A stretch of 64,000 nt of DNA from a bacterium. GTDB taxonomy: Bacteria; Armatimonadota; Fimbriimonadia; Fimbriimonadales; Fimbriimonadaceae. Every line of letters begins with the position of its first letter. Positions within the stretch are counted from its first letter, which is position 1. Shown in pieces: positions 19,617 to 32,589 of the stretch. The notes under the pieces are model-generated. The model made no database searches. It had not been told where the DNA came from and was given only the letters and a program-made list of their open reading frames with translations. A program made the position numbers and the translations under genes. The stretch spans positions 62,001 through 126,000 of the forward strand of contig JAIXQR010000001.1 of assembly GCA_027485645.1 (NCBI GenBank). Direction: 5' to 3'.

Positions 19617-20390
19617 TCAAATATAGGGTTCGCGGAAAGCGTATCGAAAGTTCGTCGTGTCGAAGTCTTGTGCGGTTAAGCCGTGGACGATCATTGACTT
19701 CTGAATCTCTGAATGAACCAGCTCGTAATGCCAGTCCCGCTCGGTGGCTGTTCGGACATCGGCCCATACTTTCGCGACGTTCGGCCCGAATGCTTTTACC
19801 AGGTCGACCTCTCTCAGATCAGTTGCGGATAGCGACTTGCAATCAGTCAGAACGTAGACGTTTTCCCCTTTGATCCAAAGATTCACGACCCACTGAATAC
19901 GATCATCTTGCTCTTCAAACCAGTCGAAAAGAAATGTTCCTTGTTCAAAGCTCTTAAACTCGGGGATTTCAATCCGATTAAACTTTAGCCGACCACTCGG
20001 GTCAAGATCGGCAGTTCGCTGATAATAGATGTCGTGACAGGAAAGAATTACCCGGAAGGGCCCGGCGAAATGCCAGTGTAAACCCTTTGGATGTAATCCG
20101 AGGATATTCCCTAAATTTTCAGCAAAGACGGTGGCAAAGATGCAGCTCACCGTAAGGTTGTATTCCCCACCTTTGCGCTCGGAGCCAACCAACCAGGAAT
20201 CATGCATACCCGAGCGGAAAAACGGTCGGTGTTCCTCGTTAACCGGGATCGGCTTTTTGAGCTTGGCTAACCAGCGTTCCCAGTAGACCGCTTCTCGCCT
20301 CTCTTCTTCCTCCCACGGAATATTTGACTTTAGGTGTCCTACCCCGCCGAGGTCATTCACGTGCTTCGCGTCTTTCAGCCAGCTTTTCAT
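19617..20390 (-). CDS. hypothetical protein, tandem paralogue 1 (257 aa)
   Basis: I do not recognise this family. The protein has exactly the same length as its neighbour at 20595-21368 and well over half of its residues match by eye. Conserved blocks include MHDSWLVGS, the FAENLG.ILGL region, GPFRV, FDWFEEQDDRIQW, VYVLTDC..(L/V)SATDLREVDLV, AFGPNV and QDFDTTNFRY near the end. There is no signal peptide or membrane helix, so it should be cytoplasmic. Conservation spread over the whole length suggests that both copies are expressed proteins. Confidence 0.75.
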   Translation of the reverse strand: MKSWLKDAKHVNDLGGVGHLKSNIPWEEEERREAVYWERWLAKLKKPIPVNEEHRPFFRSGMHDSWLVGSERKGGEYNLTVSCIFATVFAENLGNILGLHPKGLHWHFAGPFRVILSCHDIYYQRTADLDPSGRLKFNRIEIPEFKSFEQGTFLFDWFEEQDDRIQWVVNLWIKGENVYVLTDCKSLSATDLREVDLVKAFGPNVAKVWADVRTATERDWHYELVHSEIQKSMIVHGLTAQDFDTTNFRYAFREPYI

Positions 20391-20594: not shown

Positions 20595-21368
20595 TCAAAA
20601 CTTTGGTTCGCGGAAGGAGTATCGAAAGTTCGTCGTGTCGAAGTCCTGTGGGGTTAAGCTATGAGCGGCCATAGACTTCTGAATTTCTTTGCGAACCAGG
20701 ACGTAATGCAAGTCCACAGTTTTACTGGCATTCAAAACGTCTTTCCACACCTCCGAAACGTTCGGGCCAAAAGCCGTCACAAGATCGACTTCTCGTAAGT
20801 CAGTAGCGGAAACTGAGCTACAGTCGGTCAAAACATAAACTGTGGGACCCAAGTTCAGCTCAACGATCCACTGGATCCTATCATCTTGCTGCTCGAACCA
20901 ATCGTAGAGAAACGCTCCGTCGTTGTAACTCTTATATTCATGCGGCGGAATGCGGAAATACTTCAACCATCCGCCGGTTTCTTCGCTCGCGGTTCTTTGA
21001 TAGGTGACGCCGTGACAGCAAAGATTGACCCGGAAAGGTCCCGTAAAATTCCAGTTGATCTGATCGGGTCGGAGGCCGAGAATGCTTCCGAGATTTTCCG
21101 CAAAGATCGAAGCGAAGAAGCAACTGAGGGTTAGCACATATTCCGAGCCGGCTCGCTTTGAGCCAACGAGCCAGGAATCATGCATTCTTGTCCCGAAGAA
21201 GGATCGATGCGGCTCGGCAACTGGGATGGGCTCTCGAAGTTTTCGGGTCCAGCGGTCCATGTTGACCGTTTCTTTCCTATCCCACTCTTCGTCGGGCAGC
21301 TTCGAGCTGATCGGGTGCGAACCGCCCAGGTCGTGAACCCGTTTCGCACCCTTGAGCCAACTAATCAT
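20595..21368 (-). CDS. hypothetical protein, tandem paralogue 2 (257 aa)
   Basis: This is the sister of the 19617-20390 protein, equal in length, with the same block order (MHDSWLVGS, GPFRV, FDWFE or YDWFE before QQDDRIQW, the SATDLREVDLV block, the QDFDTTNFRY tail). Variable stretches lie near residues 17-50 and 125-150. No domain is recognised. A head-to-tail tandem duplication explains the pair. The neighbours give no clear functional hint; an immunity-like or repair-like role would be speculation. Confidence 0.75.
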   Translation of the reverse strand: MISWLKGAKRVHDLGGSHPISSKLPDEEWDRKETVNMDRWTRKLREPIPVAEPHRSFFGTRMHDSWLVGSKRAGSEYVLTLSCFFASIFAENLGSILGLRPDQINWNFTGPFRVNLCCHGVTYQRTASEETGGWLKYFRIPPHEYKSYNDGAFLYDWFEQQDDRIQWIVELNLGPTVYVLTDCSSVSATDLREVDLVTAFGPNVSEVWKDVLNASKTVDLHYVLVRKEIQKSMAAHSLTPQDFDTTNFRYSFREPKF

Positions 21369-22210: not shown

Positions 22211-24007
22211 TTATTCCGCCGCCGGGGCGCTAGATGTCTCCGGAAATGCGGCGCGGATGCGAGCGATTCGCTCGGAATAGGTTGGTTTGGGGTTGTGGCC
22301 GTAATTCACCAAGTCGATTCGAAGAAATTCGTCTTGCTTCTGAAGGGCGGAGATCGCAGCAGAACGATTTCCGGTTGCTTGGACGACGCGCAGATCTGTA
22401 TTGAATCGTTTCTTTCGGACCTTGATCACCTCCTTAACTAACCGACCGAGGTAGTAAAGGAAAGGACTAACCAATATTACAGCAATAGCGATGTAGAGTG
22501 GTCCTGGAACCCATCGTAATTGGGGCAGGGAAACAAGCCAGAGAATGAGGGCTGATGCGGACCCTAGGGTCGTTACAACTGGAGGCTCGGATATCCATAC
22601 TGTCCAATGCTTCTCTAAAACGCAGAACTCGAGCTCTTCCAGACTCAATCTGCGGAGTGCGGCTTCCGAAACCGTAAGCTTTCCATCCGACAAGGAGACA
22701 TTAATAGAAGCGCCAGTGTTCGCGGAAATCTCAAACTCCTTGATTAAGGAGGGTTCGATCAGTTCGACTTTGGCAATGAGCTCCTTAGCTTTATGGCTCA
22801 ATTCTTCTTGATCCTGAATAACTGTCGGCTCAGGCGGAATGTACTTTTTATCTGGGATAAAGCTTGACATCATGAAAATGAAAAGTGCGATCCGAATTTT
22901 GTAGTCATGGATTGCGTCTGCTTTCGTTGTTGGCACAAAAGCGATCGCAATGGCCGCTACCCAGATGATGGCTTTGACGGCGGTCAGAATCGTGTTTCGA
23001 ACAACAGTGGGTTTCGGATGCTCTATAAATTGAACTCCAGGTTCGCGGTCCGTAAGCTCATTAAGACAAGCCTGGAGCAATCTATTTCGTTCAGATTTCA
23101 AAACGAATGGAATCATTGATGCGAAAACAATGCTGAATCCTAGAAAGATCAGATAAGCCGGATAATCAAGTGAAAACCAAAGATCATTCAGTGAGGCGAA
23201 AGCCTGGGTCAGCAAGGCAGCGATCGCCAAAACGAACACGGCGACAATCGTCCAGGACTTTCCTGCTGCTTCAGTGCGGACAAACATCTCACGTCGCTTA
23301 CCAAGTGGCAAATGTGAGGATCGAGCGATGCTTCTCGCTCGAAAGTAAACGGCGCCTACACATACGAGGGGGAATAGTGCAAGCCCAGCAAACAGGGAAA
23401 GTGACCACCAATCCAGACGTACGACAATCTGCGCATCTCTCAGCTTCTTCAACTCGGATAGGTTCCAATAGCGGTATCCAAGCGGTTTTGTTCGGTCGGG
23501 TTGCGGGAAATCCTGGGGCAAACGCGCTCCACCTGTTACGATCATGCCAAAGCGAGTCGTGTCTTCCAACTGCAATTCCCGATAGAGTGACGCCAGCGGA
23601 ATGGTGTAGCTAAGCTCCGTCTTGCCCAGGCCCATTACCGACTGAGAGAAGTCAGCTGCTGCGCAGTCGTCTTCCTGCGAGTACTGAACGGTTCCTGACA
23701 GGCCATAACGGTCTCGCCACGCCACAAGTTTTTCGGCGTATTGTTTCGCATCCGAAGTTATAGGTCCGACCGCCAAAACCCTGTACGACCTCCCTGTAAC
23801 CTCAACGTACAGCACAGCCTGACCTTTTGGCAATTCGGGATCGGGCCAACCGAAGATCGCTCCAAACTCGTCAAGAGTCCTGTGCTCGGTCTTCTTAACC
23901 AGCCACTCCCTCGACTCCACAATCTGAGCGCTAGCAGACGCCGCCAACCCGGCGGCGAGGATCAAGCAGATCAGCAACCATAAGAACCGGGGCCGTACGA
24001 GGCTCAT
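22211..24007 (-). CDS. membrane protein with degenerate M48 peptidase domain, copy 1
   Basis: The 598-residue protein has a signal peptide (1-28), an extracytoplasmic domain (29-195), membrane helices near 203-222, 252-270, 280-303, 340-358 and 368-385, an M48-like domain and a last hydrophobic pair near 478-520. Where M48 enzymes have EL...HExxH, this reads ELEFCVLEKHWT (458-469): E465, K466 and T469 replace His, Glu and His. The later ExxxD ligand is R534 in RFNTD. ATGNRSAAISALQK and the PTYSERIARIRAAF tail keep the M48 pattern. I chose the ATG at 24007 (signal peptide) over upstream ATGs inside the next gene. It is probably catalytically dead. Confidence 0.8.
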   Translation of the reverse strand: MSLVRPRFLWLLICLILAAGLAASASAQIVESREWLVKKTEHRTLDEFGAIFGWPDPELPKGQAVLYVEVTGRSYRVLAVGPITSDAKQYAEKLVAWRDRYGLSGTVQYSQEDDCAAADFSQSVMGLGKTELSYTIPLASLYRELQLEDTTRFGMIVTGGARLPQDFPQPDRTKPLGYRYWNLSELKKLRDAQIVVRLDWWSLSLFAGLALFPLVCVGAVYFRARSIARSSHLPLGKRREMFVRTEAAGKSWTIVAVFVLAIAALLTQAFASLNDLWFSLDYPAYLIFLGFSIVFASMIPFVLKSERNRLLQACLNELTDREPGVQFIEHPKPTVVRNTILTAVKAIIWVAAIAIAFVPTTKADAIHDYKIRIALFIFMMSSFIPDKKYIPPEPTVIQDQEELSHKAKELIAKVELIEPSLIKEFEISANTGASINVSLSDGKLTVSEAALRRLSLEELEFCVLEKHWTVWISEPPVVTTLGSASALILWLVSLPQLRWVPGPLYIAIAVILVSPFLYYLGRLVKEVIKVRKKRFNTDLRVVQATGNRSAAISALQKQDEFLRIDLVNYGHNPKPTYSERIARIRAAFPETSSAPAAE

Positions 24008-24080
24008 CACGCGCAATGATACTGCAGGTTTGTGTTCCGAGCCCTGATTTTCTACGTTCGTAAACATTGGACAAGACCGG

Positions 24081-25862
24081 CTACGCCGAGAACCTCTCTC
24101 TGATGCGCTCAAGCCGCTCGCGGCAGGTCGGATCCGGCGGAAAGTCTCGGTACGCCTTTCTGACCAACTCAATCCGTTCCATTCGCTCAAGAGCGGAGAT
24201 GGCGGCACTCAGGTTCTGTGTTGCGTCAATTATCCGTGCATCGGTCGCAAACATGGCGGCTCTTCTATTGAGCCAATACATGCGCCAGTAGACGATACCA
24301 ACGATGACCGGAAGCAGCAGGCTCGCGTAACGCATGACATCGGTAGCAGTAGGAACTGAAGATATGGCTGTGAAAAGAACGTATGTAACTCCACCAGTGG
24401 CAACTACCAAGAAGGCAGTTCCTGCATCCCCTATTGGCCGCGGAACTTTGAACCAACATTTGTGAAGAATTGAGAACACTAACTCATCCACGGATGACCG
24501 TCGAATCCACCATTCAGGAATCAAAAGTTCGTGGTGTAGTTCATATATTTCGAACTCGGGAACCCTCGTTTTTCGGATTTGAGTTTCTTTGTCCGTATTA
24601 TCGACTAAAATCTTGACCTGCGAAAAAGCGTCTGCCAACTTTTGTTCTAGCGCAGGCAGGTCAATGGCCCGTGACGGTGCAGTTAACTGATTAGGACGGT
24701 AAGGGAAAACTATCGACGTTGCATAACTCAGCGTAGCCCATGCGTTCTGATGACTATGAAACCACTCAAATGGCAAAGACGGCATAAATGCCGCTGTGCA
24801 TAGCGTCACGATTGGAACGAGATGGGGAAGATGGGCTGCGATGTCGGACGCTTTAGGGCGCAACCGCATAGGCTCATCATCCATCGGCGGACCGGACGCT
24901 TCAGTGATTGCTTCGGCTTCAGCTTCCAGCTGATAGCTTTTCCGAAGGAGAAAGGAATATAGCAAACTCGGCAAGAGTGTCAAGACAGTGAGCAGAACGA
25001 CACCCGCGCCAATCTGGGCTGGTCCGAACCAAAGGGCCACTAAGGGATCCAACGATCTAGTCCAAATGACGGGGACAGAAAAGAGACAGTGGAGCACTAT
25101 CGTCGTACCAAGGACTGGTTGAACACTCTTGTAGAGCAGAACCTCTCGGTCGAGATCAGTTAGATCCGTTCGTTGTCGAATCGGCAGGGCGAGTTTGTAC
25201 GCTTTGAGCAAGCCGACAGATGGAATCAGGATCAGTATCGCAAGGATTGGGATGAGCCATCCAGATAAGGTTTCACCAATTCGGACATCACTCTTTACAG
25301 TTTCTGAAGATAGGTTCCAGTACTTCAATCCATCCTTGCCCACGAAAGTCGGAGCTGGCAACGCCGCTGGCGGGCCGGTTACGCGGAAGTACACAAGTGC
25401 ACAGTTCGTTACATCTTCTAGCTTGACTTCGCGCGGGAGAGACGCTATCGGAAGCTCAAGGCTATAGCCCGGCTTGCCAAAACCAGACGCGGAGTAGGCG
25501 TAGACGGCCACCGAGGCGGATTCCTGCCGAACGTACTGAATGCGCCCAGGAAGCCCCCTCTGCCTTTTCCAGGCATCGAGCTTCTCAGCGTAGGCTTTGG
25601 GATTGGTCGTTGGGGGCCCGACCGCGACCACTTTGTAACTCGGTCCCTCCGCAAGGATATAGAGCACAGACTGCCCTTTCCGAATCTCTGGAGACGGCCA
25701 TCCGAAGTTGTCTCGAAACTGCTCCAGAACTTTGAATTCAGGCTTCCCGATGAGCGGTTCTGGCGATTCAACAATTTGGGCCTGAGACGAGACCAGACCG
25801 CAAAGCCACAAAACCGCGCTGACTAGCAGGTTCAAGTTGCAACGAAACGTGAGTCTAGCCAT
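24081..25862 (-). CDS. membrane protein with degenerate M48 peptidase domain, copy 2
   Basis: The 593-residue protein has the same layout as copies 1 and 3: signal peptide (1-28), N-terminal domain with NFGWPSPEIRKGQSVLYI, membrane helices from about 202, and a C-terminal M48-like region. The metal-motif position reads ELVFSILHKCWF (460-471): the first His is kept (H467), Glu is K468 and the second His is F471. The third ligand position is M537 in MFATD. The family C-terminal stretch ATQNLSAAISALERM is recognisable. This copy is the most divergent of the three in its central part. A role other than proteolysis is inferred. Confidence 0.8.
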   Translation of the reverse strand: MARLTFRCNLNLLVSAVLWLCGLVSSQAQIVESPEPLIGKPEFKVLEQFRDNFGWPSPEIRKGQSVLYILAEGPSYKVVAVGPPTTNPKAYAEKLDAWKRQRGLPGRIQYVRQESASVAVYAYSASGFGKPGYSLELPIASLPREVKLEDVTNCALVYFRVTGPPAALPAPTFVGKDGLKYWNLSSETVKSDVRIGETLSGWLIPILAILILIPSVGLLKAYKLALPIRQRTDLTDLDREVLLYKSVQPVLGTTIVLHCLFSVPVIWTRSLDPLVALWFGPAQIGAGVVLLTVLTLLPSLLYSFLLRKSYQLEAEAEAITEASGPPMDDEPMRLRPKASDIAAHLPHLVPIVTLCTAAFMPSLPFEWFHSHQNAWATLSYATSIVFPYRPNQLTAPSRAIDLPALEQKLADAFSQVKILVDNTDKETQIRKTRVPEFEIYELHHELLIPEWWIRRSSVDELVFSILHKCWFKVPRPIGDAGTAFLVVATGGVTYVLFTAISSVPTATDVMRYASLLLPVIVGIVYWRMYWLNRRAAMFATDARIIDATQNLSAAISALERMERIELVRKAYRDFPPDPTCRERLERIRERFSA

Positions 25863-25891
25863 GCATTTCCTGGTTGGTCAAAAAGTTCTCT

Positions 25892-27688
25892 TCAGTGTGA
25901 GATCGTACGTTCATCAGCCGTGGATCCTGGGAATGCAGCGCGAATGCGTTCGATCCGTTCCGTATAAGAAGGCTTCGGCTTGTTTACTCCTGCGTCCAAG
26001 CCGACTTGGAGTGCCTTGTCCATCCTTTCCAATGCCGAAACGGCCGATTCAGGGTTTCCCGTTGCTTGGACGACGCGAAGATCGGTTGCGAAGGTTGCCT
26101 CAATACTTGTTCGTTTGAATTTTGCAGAAGATATGAAAATTCCAACGATCGGAATGAGAAACGCTAGATACACGTTTCGGGATGTCAGCAAAACTGAGGA
26201 TGGGAGCGCGAAGATGGCAAATGGCGCCGCAAATAGTAAGAAGAAAAAAGGGTTAGAGAGCGGATTCTTTGGTCTGAACCACGATTTATGCAAGAAATAA
26301 TAGAGCAATTGATCTTCGTTCCACAGTCGAAGTGTACCTTCTGCAATTTGTAACGCCTGACCTTTGATTGAGCAAGACTGGTCAAGAGCATTAGATTCAA
26401 GTATGGTTACGGTCTTTACAGGTTTTGTTAGATGATGATTCAAATTTGAAATTACAAACTCGGCTTTTGCCCGCAAATTCTCGATGTCATCGGCTTGAGA
26501 TTCAGCTAGTTTAGTTTGTTTTAGGTTTACACTAAAAGATGATAGGATAATGATTAACATGGATGCTGGCAGTTTCCATGCATCAAGTGGGTCCCGTTTA
26601 CCAGTTGGGAGATAGAGGATACAGACTCCCAATATGATTAAGCAAAACATTGGTAAAAATTGCTGCAGGACCTGTTGTGGATTCGGTTGGTTTACTTTAG
26701 TCTTGCTCAACGTTGAAAGTTGGACCAATCGTGATTCTGCTTCGGTGAGAGCAGAGAGTGAAGCTTCAGTCCTCTTCGTAAGCACCGCAAACAAGACTGG
26801 CACAATGAGTAATGCAAACCCAAAATATAGGCCGATGTTCAAGAACGGAGCATCAAACCAAAGGTAGGTAATCGGATCGAAACTGCGAAACGCGACTGCC
26901 GGAACGAATAGCAGGGAATGTAACACGGTTGGCCCAATAGTGCCTCCGAGGACTAGCTGACGATACACTCTGCGGCGCTGCTCCAGGGATCGGGATTCGT
27001 CCTGAGCAAATCTCACCGCAAAGGCATAACATGCTCCAGTTGCAACGAACGGAAACAGTAGTACGCTCACAAAGTAGATCAGCAGCCAAGGTTCGAGTTT
27101 TTGCTGTATGACCAAGTCCTTCGGCTGAGACCATTTCGACAGATCCCAGAAGCCGTAAATTCTCTTAGAAAGATAACCTGGCGGCGGCAACTCTGCAGGC
27201 CACTTGAGGTTGCCATTGATTACGAGACCCAGATTGGTCTTTGTTTCTAACTTTATTTCCGTGATGATCGATGCGAGGGGAAGCTTGAGGTTTGTGGAGG
27301 TCTTGCCAAAGCCTGTTTCAGAAACAGAAAAAAGAGCGGCGGCACAATCGTTCTCTTGGGAGTAAAGAACGGGCCCCGACAGCCCGTGTCTCTCCTTCCA
27401 CTCATTCAGAATGCGTGCGTAGGCTTTTGCATCAGACGTGACCGGTCCGACGGCAAGAAGCTTGTAAGAAGCGCCTTCAGCATAAACGTAGACCACGGCC
27501 TGCCCCTTTGGAATCTCGGGATCTGGCCAGCCAAAATTGTCATGAAACTGATCGAGAATCCGATGCTCGGTTCTCAGAACCAGCCACCTTGGAGAATCCT
27601 GAATCTGCGCGCAACAGTTAGCAGCAATACCGCACCACAAAAGGGCACAAAGCAGCCAACGTGAAATGCGACCGATCGCAAGGCTCAT
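25892..27688 (-). CDS. membrane protein with degenerate M48 peptidase domain, copy 3
   Basis: The 598-residue protein matches copy 1 closely in its N-terminal domain (TEHRILDQFHDNFGWPDPE, then PKGQAVVYVYAEG) and in the tail (ATGNPESAVSALERM, PSYTERIERIRAAFPG). The metal-motif position is QLLYYFLHKSWF (460-471), so Glu is K468 and the second His is F471, with H467 kept; the third ligand is T532 in TFATD. Middle residues 320-430 are unlike the other copies, and the gene is visibly more AT-rich than its surroundings. It is the first gene of the triplet to be transcribed; 29 bases separate it from copy 2. Confidence 0.8.
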   Translation of the reverse strand: MSLAIGRISRWLLCALLWCGIAANCCAQIQDSPRWLVLRTEHRILDQFHDNFGWPDPEIPKGQAVVYVYAEGASYKLLAVGPVTSDAKAYARILNEWKERHGLSGPVLYSQENDCAAALFSVSETGFGKTSTNLKLPLASIITEIKLETKTNLGLVINGNLKWPAELPPPGYLSKRIYGFWDLSKWSQPKDLVIQQKLEPWLLIYFVSVLLFPFVATGACYAFAVRFAQDESRSLEQRRRVYRQLVLGGTIGPTVLHSLLFVPAVAFRSFDPITYLWFDAPFLNIGLYFGFALLIVPVLFAVLTKRTEASLSALTEAESRLVQLSTLSKTKVNQPNPQQVLQQFLPMFCLIILGVCILYLPTGKRDPLDAWKLPASMLIIILSSFSVNLKQTKLAESQADDIENLRAKAEFVISNLNHHLTKPVKTVTILESNALDQSCSIKGQALQIAEGTLRLWNEDQLLYYFLHKSWFRPKNPLSNPFFFLLFAAPFAIFALPSSVLLTSRNVYLAFLIPIVGIFISSAKFKRTSIEATFATDLRVVQATGNPESAVSALERMDKALQVGLDAGVNKPKPSYTERIERIRAAFPGSTADERTISH

Positions 27689-30588: not shown

Positions 30589-30617
30589 TTGGCAGAAAAA
30601 GCGAACTGACAAATGAT
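30589..30617 (+). promoter_or_regulatory. possible porin promoter
   Basis: TTGGCA (30589-30594), 17 bases and AATGAT (30612-30617) precede the porin ATG by 31 bases. The -35 is a 5/6 match and the -10 a 4/6 match to the sigma-70 consensus. A start here would trim the leader hairpin described at 30620-30640, so only one of the two can be fully right. Confidence 0.35.
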
Positions 30618-30619
30618 CG

Positions 30620-30640
30620 GTCTCCAAGCGTTCCGGAGAC
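30620..30640 (+). promoter_or_regulatory. leader hairpin containing the porin ribosome-binding site
   Basis: GTCTCC (30620-30625) pairs perfectly with GGAGAC (30635-30640) across a nine-base loop. The second arm contains the Shine-Dalgarno GGAG, eight bases before the actual spacer and ATG at 30649. In the RNA the ribosome site could therefore be masked, which would allow translational control of an abundant envelope protein. The stem is short and its stability is uncertain. Confidence 0.4.
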
Positions 30641-30648
30641 AAAAAATC

Positions 30649-32589
30649 ATGAAGCGAACCCTTAAGTTGGCTCTCTCGGCCGTCCTCGGCGCAGCGCTGG
30701 TTACCCCAGCCCTCGCACAGGACAACTTCCCAGACGTTCCAGACAATCACTGGGCATACGAAGCCCTTCTTCGATTGAAGAGCAACGGCCTTTTGGTCGG
30801 TTACCCAGACGGCCTTTTCCGCGGCGCTCGACCAGCATCGCGATACGAAATGGCAGTTGCGATCCACGCAACCTACGTCAACCTCAAGAACATCACCGAC
30901 GGCCTGCAGAAGCAGATCGACGAGCTGAAAGGACAGGTTGGCGGAAACACCGGCAGCGGTGACACCCAGAACCTCAAGACTGCTCTCGAGAACCTCCAGA
31001 GTGAAGTCGGTGGCATGAAGAAGTGGGGCGATGATGTCGCTGCCCTTCGCCGCTTGACCGACACGTTCCAGAAGGAACTCCAGGACTTGAACGTCGACGT
31101 CGAAAAGATGAAGACGGACCTCAAGGACCTTCAGGACCGAGTCACGGTTCTCGAAAAGGTTAAGCCAGCTATCTCGATCAGCGGCGACGCTAACCTCTGG
31201 GTTGGCACCGGCGCAGGCATCGAAGGTAACGGCGGCCTGAACAAGGACGGCCGATACGTTGGTGCTCAGACCACCGGCGGCGTCGTTCGAGAAACCTCCT
31301 TCTTCCAGGATCTCGCTATCCTTCACGAAGGCGCGTTCAAGTTCAGCACCACCAACGAAATGGGACCTAAGTTCAACGCAACTTTGGTCGCAGGCAACAT
31401 GCTCGGCGGAAACGCTCAGCGAGGCGCCTTCTTCAACCAGGGTCTTCCAGCTCAGGGAACCTACTACTTCGAACAGGCTGGCCAGGATGTTTACTTCCAG
31501 GACTTCAGCGTCAAGTTCGATTCCGCAGTTGCAGGCCTCGGCTTCAACGCAGAAATCGGTCGAGTTGGCTACAAGATCAGCCCAATGATCCTTCAGCGAC
31601 CAGACTTCACGTCTTACTTCGCTAACGATCGATGGGACAACGGCAAGTACCTCTTCGACGGTGGTATCGCTACCCTCGGACTTGGTAAGGCCAAGGTTGA
31701 CATCTTCGGCGGTCGAAACAACCGACGATTCAGCACCAACGGTGTTGAAATCAACCCTTACCTCTTCGGTAGCACCCAGAACCCGCTCAACTTCTCGCCA
31801 GACCGATCGGCTGGTGTGAACGCTAGCCTCGCTCTCGGAAACGTCGGCAACATCAACGTTGCTTACCTCATCTTCGATGCGAACAACCCAGCGCCAATCA
31901 ACGCAACCAACTTCAACCGAGTTCAGGTTATCGGTGCAGACGCAACCTTCAAGGTTGGCCCAGTCAGCCTGGCTGGCGGCGCCGCTCAGACCGAGCTTAA
32001 GCGAAACGAGAAGTCTCGACTCAACGACGACAACGGCTCCTTCTACGTGAAGGGAAGCATTGGCGGAGACCGATACGGTGTTACCCTCGGTTACAAGCAG
32101 GTCGAGAACAACTACTTCGCTCCTGGAGACTGGGGACGACTTGGTATCGTTCGAAACCCGACCAACATCGAAGGATTCTTCGGTAACGGTCACCTCAACA
32201 TCAGCGATTCGCTCACCCTCCGCGGTGGTGCGATGATCCTCGAAGGCGCAAAGACCTTCGCAGGCGCTCCAGTTGGCTCCTTCGGAACCAACACCGACAT
32301 CACCCGATTCGACCTCGGACTGGACTACAAGCTCAGCTCGAACTTCTCGGTTATGCTCGGCTTCGAACAGACTGAGTTCGAGAACGTTGTCGGCGTCGCA
32401 GGCAAGCCAAAATACCGCTGGTACAACGTTGGCTTCGGCTACGGCCTCGGTGACAACGCGATGCTCAAGATCGGATACGAAATCTCCGACCACGTCAACG
32501 ACTATCAGACCCTTGGCTTTGGTTCCACCAGCCCAACCGGTCGATACCAGGGTGGATTCTTCACCACCCAGCTTTCGGTCAAGTTCTAA
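30649..32589 (+). CDS. SLH-domain outer-membrane porin
   Basis: The 646-residue protein has a signal peptide (KRTLKLALSAVLGAALVTPA, then LAQ), one SLH domain (about 25-80, FPDVPDNHWAYEALLRLK and SRYEMAVAIHATY), a coiled coil (about 85-170, LQKQIDELKGQVGG and following heptads) and a C-terminal beta barrel ending in SVKF with the terminal Phe usual for outer-membrane barrels. Such proteins tether the outer membrane to pyruvylated wall polymer, matching csaB at 2703. GGAGA precedes the ATG at 30649; the frame is open to 30613 but that start lacks a signal peptide. Arginine is CGA in about 23 of 28 cases, and a strong terminator follows: it is probably very highly expressed. Confidence 0.93.
   Translation: MKRTLKLALSAVLGAALVTPALAQDNFPDVPDNHWAYEALLRLKSNGLLVGYPDGLFRGARPASRYEMAVAIHATYVNLKNITDGLQKQIDELKGQVGGNTGSGDTQNLKTALENLQSEVGGMKKWGDDVAALRRLTDTFQKELQDLNVDVEKMKTDLKDLQDRVTVLEKVKPAISISGDANLWVGTGAGIEGNGGLNKDGRYVGAQTTGGVVRETSFFQDLAILHEGAFKFSTTNEMGPKFNATLVAGNMLGGNAQRGAFFNQGLPAQGTYYFEQAGQDVYFQDFSVKFDSAVAGLGFNAEIGRVGYKISPMILQRPDFTSYFANDRWDNGKYLFDGGIATLGLGKAKVDIFGGRNNRRFSTNGVEINPYLFGSTQNPLNFSPDRSAGVNASLALGNVGNINVAYLIFDANNPAPINATNFNRVQVIGADATFKVGPVSLAGGAAQTELKRNEKSRLNDDNGSFYVKGSIGGDRYGVTLGYKQVENNYFAPGDWGRLGIVRNPTNIEGFFGNGHLNISDSLTLRGGAMILEGAKTFAGAPVGSFGTNTDITRFDLGLDYKLSSNFSVMLGFEQTEFENVVGVAGKPKYRWYNVGFGYGLGDNAMLKIGYEISDHVNDYQTLGFGSTSPTGRYQGGFFTTQLSVKF

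Follow-up and report, generated by a model that had tools for sequence, protein, structure and literature searches.

A tandem triplet of M48-like membrane proteins devoid of the zinc site, from a family in which that site appears to have been lost repeatedly

In BlaR1/MecR1 (M56), an extracytoplasmic sensing domain is coupled via a membrane bundle to a cytoplasmic gluzincin, and MEROPS lists non-peptidase homologues in many peptidase families. Among polytopic proteases, iRhoms, Derlins and FtsHi have lost catalysis and been retained for binding or transport (PMC11266112, PMC9965338), in which they resemble the proteins described here; they belong, however, to other peptidase families (S54, M41) and are mainly eukaryotic. 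M48 is not mentioned in a 2024 review of inactive metallopeptidases (PMC11266112), a paper on the piroplasmid degradome grouped multitopic M48 proteins with proteinases or non-proteinase homologues, and our literature search found no paper on dead bacterial M48 proteins. The three proteins reported below have in common with HtpX, Ste24/ZMPSTE24 and BepA, all of M48, the core fold and the order in which beta hairpin, motif helix, membrane hairpin, ExxxD helix and AISALxK tail follow one another. Unlike them, they lack HExxH, the third-ligand Glu, [ST]HP and any Pfam match, and carry an additional, predicted extracytoplasmic N-terminal domain. They also recall BlaR1/MecR1 in having a putative sensor outside and a gluzincin inside, and BlaR1 is among the fold matches of one of them (w3; Z 7.1), but the sensor domain is of a different type and occupies the opposite end of the protein, BlaR1 retains HExxH and relies on cleavage for signalling, and the M56 fold matches are weaker than the M48 ones.

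The window, a stretch of 64,000 nucleotides from a bacterium of the Fimbriimonadaceae (Armatimonadota), has on its minus strand three open, stop-free genes lying head to tail behind serS and a GNAT gene. ORF calls give products of 598, 593 and 598 aa, which are about 30-36% identical in pairwise comparisons, so that the preliminary description of this DNA as encoding a triplet of paralogues is borne out. Their parts are located as follows (positions in the window).

25895-27688, minus strand: w3, degenerate M48 membrane protein of 598 aa, whose gene is read first in the triplet (ORF, alignments, AlphaFold2 model with Ste24p at Z 12.4 and BepA at Z 10.6; orthologue L008, dN/dS 0.25)
27095-27604, minus strand: w3 predicted N-terminal extracytoplasmic domain, aa 29-198, where constraint is strongest (pLDDT mostly 70-90)
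26519-27094, minus strand: w3 predicted transmembrane region, aa 199-390, four clear helices and a weak fifth (hydropathy, model)
25919-26518, minus strand: w3 degenerate M48 core, aa 391-590
26276-26290, minus strand: w3 HKSWF at the HExxH position
26081-26095, minus strand: w3 TFATD, third-ligand block, Glu replaced by Thr
24084-25862, minus strand: w2, second gene, 593 aa, separated from w3 by about 30 bp (orthologue L016, dN/dS 0.22)
25269-25778, minus strand: w2 counterpart of the N-terminal domain
24693-25268, minus strand: w2 counterpart of the transmembrane region
24093-24692, minus strand: w2 counterpart of the M48 core
24450-24464, minus strand: w2 HKCWF at the HExxH position
24240-24254, minus strand: w2 MFATD, third-ligand block, Glu replaced by Met
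22214-24007, minus strand: w1, third gene, 598 aa when read from the ATG at 24007, separated from w2 by about 70 bp (ORF and alignments; orthologue L015, dN/dS 0.22); longer versions of this frame start upstream of that ATG
23414-23923, minus strand: w1 counterpart of the N-terminal domain
22838-23413, minus strand: w1 counterpart of the transmembrane region
22238-22837, minus strand: w1 counterpart of the M48 core
22601-22615, minus strand: w1 EKHWT at the HExxH position
22394-22408, minus strand: w1 RFNTD, third-ligand block, Glu replaced by Arg

Besides serS and the GNAT protein, the neighbours of the triplet are a TIM-barrel protein and two 257-aa proteins without a Pfam match. No hints of signalling were seen in this neighbourhood (serS, GNAT, TIM barrel), and no BlaI-type repressor was found among the adjoining genes. 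The 257-aa proteins are tandem paralogues (19617-20390 and 20595-21368) encoded just downstream of the triplet both here and in the second species that carries it (G014, discussed below). They were considered as partners and rejected, their family occurring in a dozen genomes of the taxonomic family that mostly have no triplet. The TIM-barrel gene was likewise discarded as a difference between the two triplet loci, G014 having one too. The SLH-domain porin gene at 30613-32589 shows a dS of 0.12 between the two triplet-bearing species, its flanking genes being at about 0.4-1.2, which suggests recent exchange or very strong codon constraint.

The M48 ancestry of these proteins is invisible to standard domain searches. 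None of w1, w2 and w3 has a Pfam match even at E up to 10; M48 (PF01435) does not reach its gathering score in the triplet, and M56 (PF05569) was not found there and is sub-threshold in the intact relatives discussed next. A search of related genomes uncovered, in the same genus, relatives (L009, L010 and L011) that are alike in length and full architecture but occur as one copy per genome and have a complete zinc site, with HELAH, the Glu of ExxxD and [ST]HP all intact. Intact full-length homologues match Pfam M48 at E 2e-24 to 9e-18 (65-87 bits), and the relatives in the genus are roughly 20-28% identical to the triplet over the whole length. When the six triplet proteins of the two species were compared with L009/L010/L011 using hhalign, the profiles aligned end to end over 565 columns with an E of 8e-62, and the triplet profile also matched ordinary M48 proteins of the genus over the M48 core (E 4e-4). 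The triplet profile used alone against the PDB matched the M48-like selecase at no better than E 0.6. A Pfam search with single sequences would have wrongly spoken against the finding, because Pfam is blind to the triplet. Homologues with an intact HExxH, whose presence in the family had been named in advance as a sign that the alignment might be shifted, do exist but serve to anchor it (HELAH...NE[FY]..D). Both closest intact relatives, in G002 and G010, have a sulfatase-like gene next to them on the same strand, which lies downstream in one case and upstream in the other (L050:8197-11477 and L051:2688-5242).

Structure prediction points the same way. The AlphaFold2 model of w3 is of middling confidence (mean pLDDT 67, pTM 0.46), and since one of the seven rows in its alignment is an intact relative, it is not wholly independent of that relative. 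Searched with Foldseek, it has human ZMPSTE24 as its top match (E 8.7e-4), the only one below 0.001. The core, from about aa 391, superposes in VIA-align on Ste24p (Z 12.4, rmsd 4.8, 178 residues), ZMPSTE24 (11.6) and BepA (Z 10.6, rmsd 3.3, 135 residues), and the model of an intact relative (L059) gives a similar list of fold matches. The w3 model, within its middling confidence, thus has the M48 gluzincin fold in its core, and together with the end-to-end profile match this upholds the earlier proposal that the M48 scaffold has been kept. We consider it very probable that w1-w3 are degenerate M48 proteins. Hydropathy outlines a signal peptide, then some 170 aa forming an outside domain, and four to five membrane helices that lead into the M48 core; the core is followed by a membrane hairpin and a tail in the cytoplasm. 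In the intact relatives, five clear helices before the core and the positively charged loops would place the core in the cytoplasm; in w1-w3 the fifth helix falls below threshold, which makes the topology of the dead copies less sure. Fold matches of the N-terminal domain are weak, the match to a PA4063/ZrgA-like zinc-binding domain (Z 6.6, rmsd 3.4, 107 residues, with the intact model) being within the range of common arrangements, and no relevant sequence match was found for this domain. The membrane bundle (aa 200-320) also resembled cys-loop-receptor-like proteins at Z about 7, but these matches were set aside as reflecting a common four-helix arrangement.

The zinc site itself is gone from all three proteins. 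The motifs read at the HExxH position in the preliminary description (EKHWT, HKCWF and HKSWF), with Arg, Met and Thr as third ligand, are those given by the alignment. Neither HExxH nor the third-ligand Glu of ExxxD, which characterize active M48 peptidases, is present. The third-ligand block, E[FY]..D in intact relatives, has retained the Asp of ExxxD, and a fourth active-site feature that had been overlooked, the His of [ST]HP, is also lost (NPKP, PPDP and KPKP). A His at the first ligand position persists in w2 and w3, and the F.TD...AT...AISAL...RI.RI blocks are retained in the triplet proteins. It had been argued that the site was lost in parallel in every copy with Lys-x-Trp conserved, and that this points to selection for a new function. 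Conservation of Lys-x-Trp fails in G014, where the counterparts of w3 and w1 read YQSWY and EKHFW, and the argument from a selected motif is not supported. Nor are parallel losses needed: with all six triplet proteins in a single clade, one loss that preceded triplication is the simplest source of the shared Lys.

The same three genes are found in the same order at the same locus in G014, a metagenome-assembled genome from Armatimonadota (L058). Orthologous products are 66-74% identical, against 83-99% for the proteins encoded by nearby genes (serS, GNAT, SLH porin, DAHP synthase and M55). Pooled over the three orthologue pairs, dN/dS is 0.15 in the N-terminal domain (CI 0.11-0.20), 0.20 in the membrane region and 0.28 in the dead core (CI 0.23-0.36). 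The triplet genes are therefore not pseudogenes: another species has kept them in place, dN/dS is far below 1 in all domains, and the dead core is, judging from these substitution rates, under weaker but real purifying selection. The ratio of core identity to N-terminal identity is about 0.5-0.65 between the dead paralogues of the triplet and near 1 (0.76-1.29) in intact pairs, which argues that constraint has shifted to the N-terminal domain without leaving the core.

How often the site was lost can be gauged from the wider family. Members were collected with a profile of the N-terminal domain (A9, A10), which is blind to the zinc motif, and Armatimonadota was the one phylum searched whole by genome profile, the family being found here only there. 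A separate profile made from a subset of the 11 members then known recovered only the G014 and G010 records. The HExxH position could be tabulated, as had been proposed, across 24 full-length members. Half have an intact site (G002, G010, G008, G018, G004-C16, G075, G098, G028, G112, G211, G243 and G025) and 12 do not, namely the two triplets, G004-C29, G013, G064 (REILG), G106 (RELCQ), G116 (REAVA) and G131 (HQVAL); because of the way members were gathered, this ratio is no artefact of finding. In the tree, the triplet clade is supported at 100/100 and joins the intact G002/G010 proteins at 99/98, and the fewest changes of state are five, whether or not the M48 core is in the alignment (leaving the core out guarded against convergence among the dead sites). 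A single clade of all dead rows is rejected (AU p 1.6e-7, for the part without the core), as is a clade of the triplet with G004/G013 (p 0.0055). The weakly placed dead rows G064, G106, G116 and G131 could pair up (AU p 0.12-0.37), so that only about three losses are firm. The tree by itself has no direction, and the changes are read as losses because regain of a complete zinc site is very unlikely. The sequences thus suggest that the site was lost about five separate times, with a cautious minimum of three (the triplet stem, G004/G013 and the G116/G131 group). Pseudopeptidases are already known, and recurrent loss is the most unusual feature here. Dead copies occur in eight genomes, of which seven lack any intact family member; the exception is G004, whose intact member is distant.

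Dead sites of the family differ in appearance. On different branches, three dead members (L070, L072 and L078) have exchanged the His of the motif helix for Arg and kept the catalytic Glu (REILG, RELCQ and REAVA), the Arg perhaps standing in for zinc or being an easy first mutation. Decay of the core is more advanced in G004/G013, where it has suffered deletions. The gene for the degenerate member of G004 shares an ATGA overlap with another degenerate M48-like gene, which encodes 282 aa and lacks the N-terminal domain, the pair (L048:1191-3775) making up a second tandem of pseudo-M48 genes. The 282-aa product was rejected as a true M48 partner, as it has neither HExxH nor a Pfam M48 match.

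What these proteins do is best explained, with a probability of about one in two, by three pseudopeptidases of an unnamed M48 branch acting as non-proteolytic membrane receptors. Open frames in two species, dN/dS below 1 in every domain and the intact homologues that serve as reference all support the earlier view of pseudo-M48 proteins with a retained non-proteolytic function. That the resemblance to M48 is due to chance or to a shifted alignment could be argued from the silence of Pfam and the poor selecase hit, but is scarcely credible in view of the 8e-62 match to intact relatives, the 4e-4 match to ordinary M48 and the Ste24 fold match. Continued peptidase activity, through a different chemistry or a metal site that has moved, could be claimed from the His surviving in w2 and w3; it is very improbable, since in the family register the other ligands are missing, what stands in their place varies from copy to copy and between orthologues, and none of the replacing residues is conserved.

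Two other explanations deserve more weight. The N-terminal domain might do all the work, the pseudo-M48 half being a membrane anchor that is drifting towards loss. The core is indeed the least constrained part, by dN/dS as well as by its identity between triplet paralogues (about 0.5-0.65 of that of the N-terminal domain), and the deletions in G004/G013 fit a drifting anchor. We nevertheless find it rather unlikely, because a dN/dS of 0.28 is still purifying selection, the blocks from F.TD to RI.RI persist in the triplet proteins and the species with the triplet showed no copy cut short behind the N-terminal domain. Substrate capture for a true M48 enzyme, or its inhibition or escort, the function favoured in the preliminary description, is distinctly less plausible. 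The genome does contain six intact M48 genes elsewhere and several pseudopeptidases are known to regulate active relatives (PMC11266112), yet all six are located away from the triplet and none encodes the N-terminal domain, and the pocket residues are not conserved between orthologues (EKHWT/EKHFW and HKSWF/YQSWY). A partner from the same family is disfavoured in particular, as an intact member is missing from the source genome and from six of the seven others that carry a dead copy, which suggests that the dead protein replaces the enzyme rather than accompanies it; an unrelated M48 of the HtpX type is a possible partner.

For the preferred reading, non-proteolytic receptors, a receptor or scaffold mechanism can be outlined tentatively. 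The zinc site would have been lost once in a single-copy ancestor and the dead protein then triplicated, which is the simplest course given that the triplet proteins group in one clade with intact relatives as its sister. The N-terminal domains would recognize a ligand or protein outside the cytoplasm, and the resulting state would be held or relayed by the membrane bundle together with the cytoplasmic pseudo-M48 core, through protein contact instead of cleavage, in a layout resembling that of BlaR1 with its scissors removed. The copies, being divergent, may differ in their ligands or may assemble into a hetero-oligomer. A wider possibility, which we regard as unlikely but worth stating, is that this is an M48 receptor family in which proteolysis is dispensable, the receptor half having been kept through each of about five independent zinc-site losses, the core being mainly a conformational signal domain and the triplet lineage having evolved a three-receptor operon. 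Pseudopeptidases have been well studied in animals and little in bacteria, and active and dead members of one small family, found within one genus and accompanied by repeated losses, would offer a natural series on the non-cutting roles of an M48 membrane protease.
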